From a virus, in the IMG/VR virus record IMGVR_UViG_3300037296_000076, positions 1-27,469 of that record: a stretch of 27,469 nt of DNA. One strand, written 5' to 3'. Made by a program: the position numbers and the translations under genes. Numbering within the stretch: position 1 is the stretch's first letter; every line of letters begins with the position of its first letter. Shown here piece after piece: positions 20,216-26,989 of the stretch. Below the pieces are notes generated by a model, which was not told the origin of the DNA, searched no databases, and worked only from the letters and a program-made list of their open reading frames with translations.

Positions 20216-20241
20216 CAAAAGGGGCCACCGAAGCAGCCCCT
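20216..20241 (-). terminator. Rho-independent terminator after the capsid gene
   Basis: AGGGGCTGC, a TTCG tetraloop and GTGGCCCCT form a 9-pair stem on the minus strand, with two wobbles, followed by TTTT. It begins 14 bases after the capsid stop. A terminator here would set capsid-gene transcripts above those of the genes downstream; partial readthrough, or antitermination by the phage NusG-like protein, would feed them. Confidence 0.8.
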
Positions 20242-20254
20242 CATAATGCTTAGA

Positions 20255-21244
20255 TCAACTAGAGGCTGTCAATCCGAAGACATCGGCGACGACGCCCAAA
20301 CCTGCCTCGTTCTTCACCTTCAACGTGCCTTCGCCGATCAGCACGCATTTCTGCGCGTCACCGGTCTTTGCAACGTCCTTGTCTTCCTTCACCTTCCGCA
20401 GCCAGTCAAATTCCAGCATGGTCGGGTCAATCAGGAACACGTTGCGCGATACGGCAGCGGATGCAGCCTGCACGCGGTTCGGCACCATCATGACCTTGCC
20501 GTAGTCGCCTTCGTAAACGTCTGCGGTGGCGATGATGGAGTTGGTCGATCCAGACGCAGCGTAGCGGAACGATGCCACGTTGGTGTCAGACATGAACGTG
20601 GTGAACACGCGCTTGACGTAGGGCGACATGCTGGCGTGGGTGACGTTTGCGCCAGACTGGTAGCAAGCCTGCATGGTGTCATCCAGCAGCGTCTTGGTGA
20701 ACGCACGCTGCGTGCCGTTGGTTGGGGCGACGGTCAGGCCAGTGCCGGACGAAAAGCCACCGGAGGCACCAGTAGCGCCGCGAGACACGTTAGTTGCCAG
20801 CCAGGTAGGCAGACCGCCAAACGTGCGGGTTGCGCCAGACGCGGACGCCGTGCTGCTGACAATGGCGAACTCAACATCCTTGCGGATCTCAATGCCTTTC
20901 TTCAGCTTCTGCTCTTTAACCTGCTCGTTGCGGCCTGCGTTGTCGGTCGCGTCCTGCGTGTTCGAGATGATGAACGACTTACGCATGATCTGCGTGTAGT
21001 TGCCCACGCGCGCAGGAGGCGTAACAGCGCCAAAGGTGTATTCATCACCTTCAAGCTGCACGTTCGCGCCCGGCACGGCCAGCGTGTCGTATTCCCATTC
21101 AGGGTGAACGGTTTTGCACGAACCTTTGCCAATCAGAGAGTAAATCGGCGTGTCTTCGGGGGTGATGCGGTTGACCACATCGGACAGTTCCTCGCGGTTG
21201 CCCTTTGCGGCAGTCGTCTGGAAGGTATTGGTAACAATAGCCAT
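20255..21244 (-). CDS. Major capsid protein, SU10/DUF5309 type
   Basis: A 329-residue HK97-fold capsid protein of the SU10 (DUF5309) group. Signs are the N-terminus NREELSDVVNRITPEDTPIY, then SKTVHP-like HPEWEYDTLA, the PPARVGNYTQIMRKSFIISN segment, the E-loop and spine region LKKGIEIRKDVEFAI, and the SPYVKRVFTTFM and RNVFLIDPTMLEF parts. Length is normal. The scaffold gene precedes it by 22 bases and a strong terminator follows it, the usual set-up for a product needed in hundreds of copies. I am confident in the capsid role. Confidence 0.93.
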   Translation of the reverse strand: MAIVTNTFQTTAAKGNREELSDVVNRITPEDTPIYSLIGKGSCKTVHPEWEYDTLAVPGANVQLEGDEYTFGAVTPPARVGNYTQIMRKSFIISNTQDATDNAGRNEQVKEQKLKKGIEIRKDVEFAIVSSTASASGATRTFGGLPTWLATNVSRGATGASGGFSSGTGLTVAPTNGTQRAFTKTLLDDTMQACYQSGANVTHASMSPYVKRVFTTFMSDTNVASFRYAASGSTNSIIATADVYEGDYGKVMMVPNRVQAASAAVSRNVFLIDPTMLEFDWLRKVKEDKDVAKTGDAQKCVLIGEGTLKVKNEAGLGVVADVFGLTASS

Positions 21245-22249: not shown

Positions 22250-22474
22250 TTAGGCCACAGGATCGTCTGGCTGGGTGTCTACGTCGCCCAAGTGGCTACG
22301 TAGGTCCGACCAGACCGATCTGATTGCGCGAACCTGCATCGTGTAGGTTCGCCGCGTTTCGTCGTCGCTGAAACCCGCGTTTACAGCCGCTTCCACGGCG
22401 TTGCGCTCTAGTTTTGCGAATGTGTCTTTGAGTAACTGGTTGTCCAGCAGCAGTTCGGCTTCACCGCGTGCCAT
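22250..22474 (-). CDS. Small helical protein between portal and scaffold
   Basis: A 74-residue helical protein: ELLLDNQLLKDTFAKLERNA, then VNAGFSDDETRRTYTMQVRA and IRSVWSDLRSHLGD. It shares one base with the portal stop (22474). Small proteins of this type, with 'L.D..L..AFD.L....I' and a middle 'DDE.R..Y...V.AI', are common next to phage portals, but their job is unknown; a scaffold accessory or packaging role is possible. Confidence 0.75.
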   Translation of the reverse strand: MARGEAELLLDNQLLKDTFAKLERNAVEAAVNAGFSDDETRRTYTMQVRAIRSVWSDLRSHLGDVDTQPDDPVA

Positions 22475-24558
22475 TAGATGCCACCTTGGGCGTTCTGGCT
22501 CATACGCGCGCGGATCATTTCGGACTCAATACGGGCCGTTTCCAGCCGCTCCTGCATCGCCAGCTTTTCGCGCTCAATCGCCCATTTTTCCGCGTTGTCT
22601 TGCGAACGGGCTTGGATGTCAGCCTGCTTGACCTGCAAGTCGGCTTGCATCTGCGCCTGTTCCTTGTCGCGGTTGCCCTGCATTTTCATCTGCTCGATCT
22701 GCATCTGCGCCTGAATTTGCGCTTGCATCTTTTCGGTCTCGGGATCGGGCTTTTGCGCCGCTTCCGCCTGCTTTGCCGCGATCTCGTCAGGGTCGGGCTT
22801 GGTGAAGAACTTGCCAGACGAGGCAAAGCCCGCCGTTTCCGTGATCTTGTCCAGTGTGTTGTAGAATTGGTCAGGCTTCACGAGCGGGTTGTCATCGCCA
22901 AGCGTCATTAGGATTTCACGCTGCAAGCCAAGGATGATCTGCAACACGGCCATATCGCGCTCTTTCGTGCCGCCACCCAATCCGACATTGACAATGGCGT
23001 TCATCTCAGCGTTCCACGTCGCCGGATCGTATTCTACCCAATCGTCATCCATGCGAACTACTGCGGGCTTGTCGCTGTGAGCGATTACCAGCTTAAGCAG
23101 GCCCTTGAACGCGCGGGCCACACCGTAAGATACGCTGCGGATGATGGCGTCAGCCTGTGCAATGCCACTTTCCGACATAAGGTGCGCAGCCGTGGCGCTA
23201 GTGTTCTGGAAAGCCTCTGGGTCTACACCGCCGCTGGCGTCCGTAATGCCTGTGCGCTCTTTCGCCATGGTGTCGAAGTATTCCATGACGCCGAACAACT
23301 GCTGGCCGACGAACGGAACCTGCGCCCACTGGATTGCGTCACCAACCCTTGCGCCAGACTCAAGCTGGATTGCTTCGCCCCATGCGCCCTTGAGCAGCGT
23401 TTCAGGGTTCTTTACCAGATCAGCCTGAATGGCTGGCTTGGGGTTGTTCACCGCATAAGCGTTATCGAGGATGCCGCGCAGAACTGCGGTCTTGACGCGC
23501 TGAATGTCGCGCGTATCCTCATAGATCGAACGGCCCTCAAACTGGTGGGCTTCACGTTCAATAACCAAATCGGCATAGGGCGCTTCGTCCACCTGTTCCA
23601 TGCCAAGCAGCACCTGTCCGGCGTCAACGCTGCCAGATCCTGCGCCATCGCCGAACACAACGCGGTGCAGCTCGGCAATGCCGTCGTCGTCAGTATCGAG
23701 GCGCACATACACCTCGTAAATCATCACTTCTTCAAGTGCGCGTGTAGTGCCGCTGGTTTCTTCGCCGTAGTCACTGCCCTTGCGCGATTCCTCCTCGGCT
23801 TCTTCGCCCAGGAACGTGCGCAGGCTCTCAACCTTGGTTTTGTCATAGCCCCACTCGACAAGCTGCGAACGTGTCACGACCTGTTCTTCGCCAACCAATT
23901 CGGCGTCGGGGATGTTGTTTGCGCCGGGGCTAATGATGAACGACGCACGCGGCACGGCCTCAAGGCGAACGTCGGTCCTCTCCACAACGCGCTTGAGTCG
24001 GAACGAATGCCGCTTTGCCTCGGGATCATAGGCCAGCACTTCCACGTCCGTCTCCGGCGTGGATGTAATGTTTGCAATCTCAACGTCGGGATCATCGAAC
24101 AAGCCTAGAACGGCCTCGTCTGATTGGTCCGTGTAATCCTGAATTGTCACGTCGCGGCGCTTGTAGGCGCACCACTTGAGAATGCCCGTCTTGAGCAGGC
24201 AGGCATCAAAGATAGCATCGTGCAGGGCAGCACGCGCGCCGCAAGCGGGGATAACAATGCGGTTAACGTATGTGGTGGCTTGCTCTGCGCCTTCCTCGTC
24301 GCCGGGGCCGACTGGCTCGTAAACCACAACGCTGTCAGATCCGAGAATGGACCGCATCAGCGATGGCATCAGCTTTTTGATCGTCGCCCGCACGTCGTTG
24401 CTGGTTACGGTTGACCGACCTGCCCGCGTGACCTTCAGGTCTTTCATCTCGCCGCGATAGTATTCCTGCGCGGTTTCCCGGTCTTTCGACTGGTCGTCAC
24501 GGTGCGCGCGGCACGCATTCACGAGCCGGTCAATGTGACCGAGTGAGAAATCATCCAT
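22474..24558 (-). CDS. Portal protein, P22-like
   Basis: A 694-residue portal that forms the dodecameric gate at the capsid vertex. The N-terminal wing starts LVNACRAHRDDQSKDRETAQ and holds VTSNDVRATIKKLMPSLMRS, the 'S.V....IEW..PSL' element of large portals. RVKTAVLRGILDNAYAVNNP is the stem/clip part, and NTSATAAHLMSESGIAQADA matches the conserved 'SATGI..LM..A..R...I.R' crown-side helix. Residues 570-694 are a long Gln/Met-rich helical tail like the barrel of P22-type portals. The ATG is 7 bases after GAGG and 12 bases past the terminase stop. Confidence 0.9.
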   Translation of the reverse strand: MDDFSLGHIDRLVNACRAHRDDQSKDRETAQEYYRGEMKDLKVTRAGRSTVTSNDVRATIKKLMPSLMRSILGSDSVVVYEPVGPGDEEGAEQATTYVNRIVIPACGARAALHDAIFDACLLKTGILKWCAYKRRDVTIQDYTDQSDEAVLGLFDDPDVEIANITSTPETDVEVLAYDPEAKRHSFRLKRVVERTDVRLEAVPRASFIISPGANNIPDAELVGEEQVVTRSQLVEWGYDKTKVESLRTFLGEEAEEESRKGSDYGEETSGTTRALEEVMIYEVYVRLDTDDDGIAELHRVVFGDGAGSGSVDAGQVLLGMEQVDEAPYADLVIEREAHQFEGRSIYEDTRDIQRVKTAVLRGILDNAYAVNNPKPAIQADLVKNPETLLKGAWGEAIQLESGARVGDAIQWAQVPFVGQQLFGVMEYFDTMAKERTGITDASGGVDPEAFQNTSATAAHLMSESGIAQADAIIRSVSYGVARAFKGLLKLVIAHSDKPAVVRMDDDWVEYDPATWNAEMNAIVNVGLGGGTKERDMAVLQIILGLQREILMTLGDDNPLVKPDQFYNTLDKITETAGFASSGKFFTKPDPDEIAAKQAEAAQKPDPETEKMQAQIQAQMQIEQMKMQGNRDKEQAQMQADLQVKQADIQARSQDNAEKWAIEREKLAMQERLETARIESEMIRARMSQNAQGGI

Positions 24559-24570
24559 GCGGGAACCTCG

Positions 24571-25830
24571 TCAGACTACGGCGTCTGGTGTGAATTTGGG
24601 CCATGCGGTCTGCGGTGCGATAAGGTCCAAGCCCATCACGCCTATCCCGCAAGCGTCTGCGCCGTGGCTTGCCCAATTGTGGACGGGCCGGGTGCGCAGC
24701 GTCATATTCTTGTCGTCGTATTCGGCGCGATACATGCGCAAGCTATCCAGACCACGATTAATGCCTTCGCCGCTTTCGTTGAACCACATACGCGGGAACG
24801 CCATGCGCACGGCATTGATGCGGTCGTCTACGCGGTGTTGAGGCACGATCCGGCATTTCAGCCCGCGCCCCTTTAGGAAAGTCTCGCGGCTTTGGCCTGT
24901 CTGCAATTCGCGCGCCGCTGCGTCATGCGGCAACAAGTGCTGGTGAACAGGGAACGGACGCGCTTTGACGTAATCAACGTAGTGATCGAGGCCAAAGCCA
25001 TTCTGTTCGTAGTATTCCAGCCAGTGGATCTCTTTACCGACAGCCTGGCCGAACCAAAGCGACATCGCGTCACCAATACCCAAGTCCCAGCTGCAAAACA
25101 CGTCAGCGGCGGGGTCATGCGCGAATGGCTTGATACGGTCTACTGCGGCGTCAACTGCCTTGCCATAATATGCGCCGATGATAGCGGCCTGAAAGCTGCA
25201 CTCGTATTCCTGCGCGTATTGCTCCGGCGTCATCTGCGAGCGTGCGTCGTCAAGTTCTGACTGCAAGATTAGCCCCGTGCGGCTGGATGGCATCATGCCG
25301 TTAAACCAGTCGTCGCGGGTCTTGGCCTGCTCGTAAATCTCGTAGAACCGATTGCGGCCCTTCGGCGTCCCGATGAATGTGGCCCAACCCTGCCGATCAG
25401 ACAGCGCGGGGCGGATTACCTCGGGGAACGCGCGCGGGTCTTGGTCGCCTGCCTCGTCAATGATGCAGCCATCCAGATACAGACCGCGCAACCGGTCGTA
25501 GTTTTCCGCGCCGTAAAGCCTAATCCGCGCGCTGTTATGCGGGAAGATGACCGACAATTCGCTTTCGCTAATCTTCATGCCGGGAATGGCTTGCGTGTAT
25601 TCCTTCAGGTAGGTCCAAGCTACGTCCTTGGCCTGCTGATACGTTGGCGCAATGTATGCAAAGCGCGGCTCGCGTCCGGTGTGCTGTATCGCACGAATGA
25701 CCAGATCCATGATGCAGGCGACAGTCTTGCCAGCGCGTCGGTGCGCAACAAGGCATGACCATCTCTCCTTGCGCTCAATGTAAGCCTTGAACGGGCCGCG
25801 CGGAACAAACGTCAGGTTAACGGCTGTCAT
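24571..25830 (-). CDS. terL: Terminase large subunit
   Basis: A 419-residue DNA-packaging motor. The ATPase has a Walker A variant VAHRRAGKT (28-36), Walker B GCIIDEA (121-127) with catalytic Glu126, and the coupling motif GTPKG (154-158). The nuclease domain begins FCSWDLGIG (245-253) with metal ligand Asp249, then HDAAARE, DRINAVR and the late HGADACGIG acid. All key residues are present, so it should be active. It overlaps the small-subunit gene by 14 bases. The mechanism of genome ends (cos or headful) cannot be told from this alone. Confidence 0.95.
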   Translation of the reverse strand: MTAVNLTFVPRGPFKAYIERKERWSCLVAHRRAGKTVACIMDLVIRAIQHTGREPRFAYIAPTYQQAKDVAWTYLKEYTQAIPGMKISESELSVIFPHNSARIRLYGAENYDRLRGLYLDGCIIDEAGDQDPRAFPEVIRPALSDRQGWATFIGTPKGRNRFYEIYEQAKTRDDWFNGMMPSSRTGLILQSELDDARSQMTPEQYAQEYECSFQAAIIGAYYGKAVDAAVDRIKPFAHDPAADVFCSWDLGIGDAMSLWFGQAVGKEIHWLEYYEQNGFGLDHYVDYVKARPFPVHQHLLPHDAAARELQTGQSRETFLKGRGLKCRIVPQHRVDDRINAVRMAFPRMWFNESGEGINRGLDSLRMYRAEYDDKNMTLRTRPVHNWASHGADACGIGVMGLDLIAPQTAWPKFTPDAVV

Positions 25831-26107
25831 CGCCGCCGATTATCACGTTGATGGTTAGCGGGTTCTCTGCATCGCCAGCGAGTTGCGTTGGCAGAACCTT
25901 ACCCAGCAGCGCCATGAAGGGGCCGGGGTTTTCGTGCGCCTGCAATGTCAGATAGCCAACCATGCCGCCCTTGCCACCTGCATCCTGTGCGGCTTGCAGT
26001 AGCGCGTCCTTGAGTAACGCCGTTGTTTTGTTAGGACTACCTTTTGGCCTGCCGCGCTGTCGTTTTTCTGCCGGGATATCAGACGCTATTTTATTTTGCG
26101 GTGCCAT
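25817..26107 (-). CDS. terS: Terminase small subunit-like protein
   Basis: A 96-residue protein with the basic RGRPKGSPNKTTALLKDALL stretch near the start and a helical middle that continues PFMALLGKVLPTQLAGD. This pattern is frequent in short terminase small subunits and related DNA-binding proteins just before terL. It would bind the packaging start site. The overlap with terL (14 bases) and the structured non-coding DNA upstream support that. The ribosome site is weak (GGA 8-10 bases upstream). Confidence 0.75.
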   Translation of the reverse strand: MAPQNKIASDIPAEKRQRGRPKGSPNKTTALLKDALLQAAQDAGGKGGMVGYLTLQAHENPGPFMALLGKVLPTQLAGDAENPLTINVIIGGDDSR

Positions 26108-26178
26108 GACTTCTATTCCGCTATGATGCGGCTCCCTGTTGGGGTTGGTGGGTTGCCTGTTCTGGTGAATGCCTTATC

Positions 26179-26212
26179 GCGTGTGTTTATGTCACGCGGC
26201 CTGCATTGCAGG
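26179..26212. repeat. Adjacent dyad repeats upstream of terS
   Basis: CGCGTG and CACGCG (26179-26184, 26194-26199) form a perfect 6-base inverted repeat around 9 bases. It is followed at once by CCTGCATTGCAGG (26200-26212), a perfect palindrome about a single T. They sit in the 291-base stretch 26108-26398, which has no convincing gene. They may be protein-binding sites for terminase or a regulator. Confidence 0.45.
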
Positions 26213-26284
26213 GCTTGGCCCACTTGGCGGGATGGTTACGCGTCGGCTGGTGTGCCGTGCTGCGAGTATGTGGAATTGCGTTGC

Positions 26285-26319
26285 TAGGGCGTCTGCCTGC
26301 GGAATACCGCGACACCCTA
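26285..26319 (-). ncRNA. Folded RNA element between NusG-like gene and terS
   Basis: On the minus strand TAGGGTGTC pairs with GACGCCCTA (9 pairs, one G-U). Inside is a second hairpin, GCGG-TATT-CCGC, and a 5-base bulge AGGCA on one side. A 35-base two-stem element with so little unpaired sequence is unlikely by chance. It lies 80 bases after the NusG-like gene and could be a cis-acting antitermination, packaging or regulatory RNA. No known family is recognised. Confidence 0.45.
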
Positions 26320-26398
26320 ACACTCAAGACTTACTGCCCGGCGTCTTTAGCGGCGACCCTAGCTGCTTGCAGGTCAATCGCTACCACATCATGTGCGG

Positions 26399-26989
26399 TT
26401 ACGCAAGCCCTAGTCGCTGCACCTCGTCACGCGACGACTCGCCCTTGATCGGCAATCCGTTGGGCATAATCGCCTGCCACCATACGCGCCCGTCCTTGGC
26501 CTGCGTTACGTCCACCATGAAGCCAGACAGCGGCCCTTCTGTGACTTGCACCGTCTCGCCTGCGTATAGGCGCTGTAGGGCCTCCTTAGCGGCCTGTAGG
26601 CGCTCTATGCGGGTCGGTAGCCCCTGCAATGAGCGGATCACGTCGTAGGGCAGCGCAATGGGCCGTGTTCCGTAGCAGAACACGCCGTTGATTACTCGGC
26701 GGGCGCGTAGCACGTCCCACTGCGGTTGGCGCTTAAACCGTGCGTAGATGATGCGCGTGATTGTCGGATGCTTAGTCACGATCTTTTCGCCGCGAAAGAA
26801 GCGCGTGCGTTCCTCTGTCGGGTAGAATGAAAACACGCCTTCACGGGCAAGCACCGCCTTTGCGGCCTGTTCCTTGCCGGGGGGTGTGACAAGCGCGTGC
26901 CAGCGTGCGGTGTCCAGCTTTGCCCCGACAATGCCCCGGTGAAACTCTACCGGCAGCACGTCGCCTTTTTGCAGGTCGGTGTATTTCAT
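26399..26989 (-). CDS. NusG/RfaH-like transcription elongation factor, phage-encoded
   Basis: A 196-residue protein built like NusG. Residues 28-125 form an NGN domain: ARWHALVTPPGKEQAAKAVL, VFSFYPTEERTRFFRGEKIV, PTITRIIYARF and RVINGVFCYGTRPIALPYDV. Residues 141-161 (LYAGETVQVTEGPLSGFMVD) are a KOW motif. NusG proteins bind RNA polymerase and alter pausing and termination; RfaH-type paralogues act only at chosen operons. Directly upstream of the late operon it is placed to let polymerase pass terminators. The ATG has GAGG 8 bases upstream. The N-terminal 27 residues are extra. Confidence 0.85.
   Translation of the reverse strand: MKYTDLQKGDVLPVEFHRGIVGAKLDTARWHALVTPPGKEQAAKAVLAREGVFSFYPTEERTRFFRGEKIVTKHPTITRIIYARFKRQPQWDVLRARRVINGVFCYGTRPIALPYDVIRSLQGLPTRIERLQAAKEALQRLYAGETVQVTEGPLSGFMVDVTQAKDGRVWWQAIMPNGLPIKGESSRDEVQRLGLA

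Follow-up and report, generated by a model that had tools for sequence, protein, structure and literature searches.

A phage NusG paralogue and its leader RNA as a candidate late antitermination system in alphaproteobacterial phages and their environmental relatives

Specialised members of the NusG family find their operons by means of leader sequences. LoaP binds a hairpin in the dfn leader of Bacillus velezensis that is essential for antitermination (PMC12691694), RfaH reads the 12-nt DNA element ops, and UpxY of Bacteroides acts in 5' leaders that adjoin the gene encoding it (PMC7819879). Among phages, the gene of the late antiterminator Q of lambda lies beside the late promoter pR' and its leader, ahead of the late genes (PMC7171158), and HK022 put is a structured RNA that lets polymerase resist pausing and termination (PMC9378689). 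In phages without a Q-like protein, the late expression of a 20-kb operon often goes unexplained, and in the literature outside subscription journals we found no description of a late leader RNA that goes with a NusG paralogue in a phage. We describe here a locus that may have this arrangement, in a virus record of 27,469 bases (hereafter, the window). The window encodes an integrase and so probably represents part of a temperate phage genome. Its late genes are on the minus strand, in the order NusG-like gene (26989-26399), terS, terL, SU10-type portal, scaffold, capsid, adaptor and onwards, and the features of this region are as follows.

26399 to 26989, minus strand: NusG-like protein, 196 aa, with NGN and KOW domains (profiles, AlphaFold model, PDB search)
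25817 to 26107, minus strand: small terminase subunit (terS; phrog_11043), assigned by position; relatives carry homologues at the matching position
24571 to 25830, minus strand: large terminase subunit (terL; Pfam/PHROG profile search)
22474 to 24558, minus strand: portal, SU10 type (Pfam/PHROG profile search)
20255 to 21244, minus strand: major capsid protein, SU10 type (Pfam/PHROG profile search)
20216 to 20241, minus strand: intrinsic terminator 3' of the capsid gene (GGGGCUGCUUCGGUGGCCCCUUUU; z=-3.52)

Coordinates and profile matches thus agree with the preliminary description of this DNA, which had placed 291 non-coding bases between the NusG-like gene and terS-terL-portal, and the terminator that it had noted after the capsid gene is a good intrinsic one. 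A promoter-like TTGACA-N18-CATTAT (20272-20243, minus strand) was also observed at the capsid stop codon, directly ahead of this terminator. Neither Rfam families nor tRNA genes were found within the window, and a phage collection searched with the window DNA and with its NusG yielded no match to the window.

The protein is a specialised NusG paralogue, nearer to UpxY and RfaH than to housekeeping NusG. Its CDS matched Pfam NusG (7e-7) and the PHROG 'transcription antiterminator' (4e-14); the NGN domain (residues 29-121) reached 30.1 bits against a cut-off of 22.2, in agreement with the fold match, and the C-terminal KOW barrel (VQVTEGPLSGFMVDV) was a beta-barrel in the predicted model. The AlphaFold model (pLDDT 83) comprised both the NGN domain and this barrel, and its top PDB matches were NusG and RfaH, so that the two-domain assignment made earlier from the sequence is borne out. 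Among curated subfamilies the best was UpxY (2e-13), at 50.6 of the 100 bits required; RfaH reached 38.6 of the 144.5 bits of its equivalog cut-off, and the protein stayed under every curated NCBIfam cut-off. The curated LoaP profile gave no match to the window protein and scored 46.2 of 125 bits, also under the cut-off, with a rhizobial homologue. The sole close NusG relative (L001, 54%) lies near a contig end, and no common leader was detectable between it and the window.

The gap between the NusG-like gene and terS (26398-26108, 291 nt) is predicted to be folded, as had been proposed. The predicted RNA reached -105.9 kcal/mol (z=-3.36) and none of 200 shuffles folded as well; fold z-scores alone are not discriminating, the covarying RNA copies of the relatives described below reaching no more than about +0.6 to -1.8 when tested in a comparable way, and fold z-scores 3' of NusG genes were dropped as a criterion for this lack of discriminating power. 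Within and at the edge of the leader we distinguish the following.

26401 to 26412, minus strand: TAGGGCTTGCGT, the same as the stretch that contains the -35 box of the candidate late promoter in the relative L063, in a different reading frame
26375 to 26382, minus strand: AGCGATTG, one base short of the motif AGCGATTTG that is conserved at the 5' end of the relatives' RNA (putative counterpart, by sequence comparison)
26363 to 26372, minus strand: small hairpin CUG-CAAG-CAG, candidate counterpart of the relatives' first hairpin
26340 to 26359, minus strand: small hairpin GG-GUC-loop-GAC-g-CC, in which one base bulges on the 3' side; it may correspond to the relatives' second hairpin
26283 to 26321, minus strand: two-storey hairpin (z=-4.15)
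26179 to 26212, minus strand: two adjacent dyads, CCUGC-AAU-GCAGG and CGCGUG-loop-CACGCG, without a U tract (z=-3.66)
26131 to 26172, minus strand: C-rich, G-poor stretch just 5' of terS, possibly a Rho-loading region

The compact two-stem element first noted at 26285-26319 proved to be a single hairpin in which two stems are stacked, with a bulge of 5 nt on one side, folding at -25.1 on the transcribed (minus) strand and at -16.7 on the plus strand. It is rare but not unique, since about 0.2% of the 49-nt stretches on the same strand fold equally well. The adjacent dyads were likewise confirmed. No U-tract terminator was found in the leader, and its best promoter-like site, GCGACT-N18-CATGAT, was equalled in 42 of 200 shuffles.

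We gathered one close NusG relative, 70 terL loci and 80 of 205 capsid relatives, and NusG-like genes were frequent among the terL and capsid relatives; a search profile made from an alignment of 10 diverse NusG proteins was too divergent and was set aside. Sinorhizobium/Ensifer prophages carried a strongly conserved non-coding element of about 100 nt that begins immediately 3' of the stop codon of the nusG-like gene, and an exact motif search found it in 20 viral contigs and three named genomes. In nearly all the copies whose upstream sequence is long enough, the end of the NusG gene coincides with the edge of the element; in L185 the two are 267 nt apart. This element is a structured RNA. 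In 27 sequences 95.9% of the cells pair, with a clear drop when the partners are slid, and 22 cells showed double changes against 4.7 in shuffles (0/500); in a wider set of 13 sequences there were 17 double changes against 5.6 (0/500). No Rfam family covered the element in the ten loci tested. What was first read as a terminator in the leader of L063 corresponds to the second hairpin of the RNA element there, and was therefore dropped as separate evidence. In most members a sigma70-like site with a 16-18-nt spacer, identified with a general sigma70 matrix and not one from alphaproteobacterial data, ends 9-12 nt ahead of a conserved GATTTG, so that the late transcript would begin with the RNA.

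The preliminary description had suggested looking for the gene and the leader together, and in the relatives they do occur together. In whole-record searches of 50 capsid relatives, 16 had both RNA and NusG, one the RNA only (18 bits), four NusG only and 29 neither (Fisher p=1.5e-8, without correction for relatedness and hence optimistic, as related sequences were counted separately). No recognisable RNA accompanied the NusG-like gene of L159, L172, L207 and L216. A search of 298 Rhizobiaceae genomes with a covariance model yielded six matches. One of them was already known; in L270 the element is beside an independent NusG gene, with a TerS-like gene downstream; in L274 it is in an apparent prophage remnant; and the match in L273 was judged to be due to chance, as was a further match, L317, from outside these six. 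The other two are in apparently decayed prophages, where the element is fused to what seems to be a gcrA-like pseudogene (L271) or adjoins a transposase-like gene (L272). Copies in phages lacking the gene, which had been named beforehand as evidence against the pairing, were thus found only in apparent prophage remnants and as the one weak match of 18 bits. The element also lies 3' of the annotated NusG-like antiterminator genes of the isolated phages phiLM21 (Sinorhizobium), RHph_N28_2 and RHph_TM3_3_3 (Rhizobium), whose RNA is unannotated and whose NusG proteins are distant from that of the window; since these isolates carry both gene and RNA, the system is directly testable. A second type of NusG is followed in G771 by its own type of element, and 1.1 kb beyond this lie a type-B element and a nusG tail; in G1080 the RNA is 1.8 kb from the NusG gene yet just upstream of terS-terL, with a promoter-like site of its own. 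The genomic pairing in this phage group is therefore well supported.

Several other arrangements were observed among these loci. L312 has two NusG/element modules in one phage (about 1060-1225 and 2215-2346), the second retaining only the last nusG codons. Between the NusG-like gene and the terminase region there is a tRNA-Met in L312 (2647-2725), L315 (1528-1604), L270 (1612-1688), L311 (1347-1422) and L309 (4958-5034), and a tRNA-Trp in L050 (4718-4791) and L052 (3985-4058). L300 and L302 carry yet another NusG type; after its stop codon, about 110 nt of non-coding sequence are conserved between both, possibly a further type of element, and the sequence beyond is unrelated. In three phages (L290, L292, L294) the NusG profile match extends upstream through an in-frame TGA, which suggests a shortened start.

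We then compared the window leader with this RNA family. None of the covariance models R1, R2 and R3 recognised it (best same-strand score, 4.3 bits), sequence profiles gave no match, and blastn against the terL loci gave only one match near the terS start plus short chance matches. The window's own two stems were absent from all the other sequences, and a direct hairpin search of viral contigs was empty. By comparison, a model built without L113 and L063 recovered both, just 3' of their NusG genes (27.7 bits, E 9e-5, and 23.6 bits, E 0.0013, respectively). L063 shares with the window the gene order NusG-leader-terS-terL and the 12-mer TAGGGCTTGCGT at a matching place, though no good -10 box follows it in the window, nor does the window leader have a sigma70-like promoter about 10 nt before GATTTG as in the relatives. 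The leader does agree with the family in its position between NusG-like and terminase genes; AGCGATTG lies close to its start, and the order of its small hairpins is similar. A match made by hand through the motif, the small hairpins and the two-storey hairpin is conjectural, as no model supports it. Either the leader has diverged beyond recognition, or another site is used, such as the ops-like GGTAGCG (26385-26379). Probably the window has a system of the same type as its relatives, in which a NusG paralogue and its leader would provide late antitermination.

On these grounds we propose, with moderate confidence, that the phage-specific NusG paralogue (26989-26399) is a late antiterminator whose loading site is the leader that separates its own gene from terS. 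It would bind polymerase in place of host NusG. Polymerase would start at a late promoter adjoining or near the nusG-like gene and transcribe first the folded promoter-proximal RNA, which the paralogue would recognise; the modified complex would then resist termination across the 20-kb late region, passing terminators, tRNA genes and opposite-strand cargo to reach the terminase and capsid genes. We infer this binding and antitermination, as well as a similar working of the window leader, and polymerase might be carried past the 20216-20241 terminator as the preliminary description had envisaged. The dedicated NusG-plus-leader antitermination put forward there is plausible for the window: the covarying RNA paired with the gene in relatives and the resemblance of the protein to specialised NusG paralogues of the RfaH, UpxY and LoaP kind speak for it, and the failure of three covariance models to find the window leader and the want of a convincing promoter and of a U-tract terminator speak against it.

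We regard it as unlikely that the paralogue instead acts as RfaH does, reading a short ops-like DNA site on the exposed non-template strand, with the downstream hairpins dispensable. The head of the window leader does carry GTGGTAGCG, where GGTAGCG, all that is present there of the ops element GGCGGTAGCGTG, overlaps AGCGATTG and resembles the core of the ops site; L159 has TTGCGT-N16-GTAGCC at the matching place; and a conserved ops-like CACCCG..TGCGGTAGC lies just 3' of three chromosomal NusG paralogues (L277, L279 and L285, alphaproteobacterial genomes), between each and the next gene or operon. However, GGTAGCG is a weak 7-base match, the relatives with covarying RNA show such a site only within the codons of the nusG end, and the covariation itself points to RNA. 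Nor do we give much credit to an ordinary late promoter region with an untranslated leader after nusG, the paralogue acting elsewhere or genome-wide: several phage clades do have promoter-like sites at the stop codon of nusG, but this reading would leave the covarying RNA and the gene co-occurrence unexplained. Packaging sites (pac or cos) often adjoin terS, and the 26179-26212 dyads are on the terS side of the gap, which could then be such a site for the small terminase with its folds acting as DNA dyads. This is rather improbable, because in most relatives the conserved RNA adjoins nusG or a promoter-like site and is separated from terS by about 1 kb or more, and because the main hairpin is stronger as RNA of the transcribed strand; the terS-proximal part may nevertheless have a role in packaging. 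That the hairpins control only the stability or translation of the terS message, a common role of long structured leaders, is very unlikely given that in relatives other genes, some on the opposite strand, separate the element from terS.

Returning to antitermination by the NusG paralogue and its leader RNA, LoaP is similar in that a NusG paralogue near a long operon goes with a small leader RNA hairpin. Its target is of the UNCG type and many rhizobial copies of the phage RNA have UUCG in the loop of the second hairpin, although no UNCG-loop hairpin was noted in the window leader. In contrast, the targets of LoaP are antibiotic operons of Gram-positive bacteria; the phage RNA, known here from its sequence, is larger, has several helices and lies beside a late promoter candidate; and the window protein lacks a LoaP profile match. 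RfaH is also a specialised NusG paralogue of similar fold serving long operons, but what it reads is DNA and its curated cut-off is not reached by the window protein. UpxY, the best curated match and likewise below its cut-off, serves capsule operons and not phages. The region of lambda Q at pR'/qut has the same layout of antiterminator gene, late promoter (here a candidate), leader and late genes, but Q is unrelated to NusG and loads via DNA at a sigma-dependent pause. HK022 put is, like the phage element, a structured RNA at the (here putative) start of a transcript, whereas put acts alone and on early genes and the RNA of the relatives is paired with a protein gene. It is thus conceivable, at slightly less than even chances in our judgement, that alphaproteobacterial temperate phages and their environmental relatives have an undescribed late antitermination system, made of a phage NusG paralogue and a dedicated structured RNA located where transcription of the late operon begins, the type of RNA and the type of NusG changing together, and that the window holds a diverged copy. 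Such a paralogue, paired with a leader RNA of its own, would offer a second route to the layout of lambda Q or HK022 put, and would connect phages with the LoaP and RfaH families.
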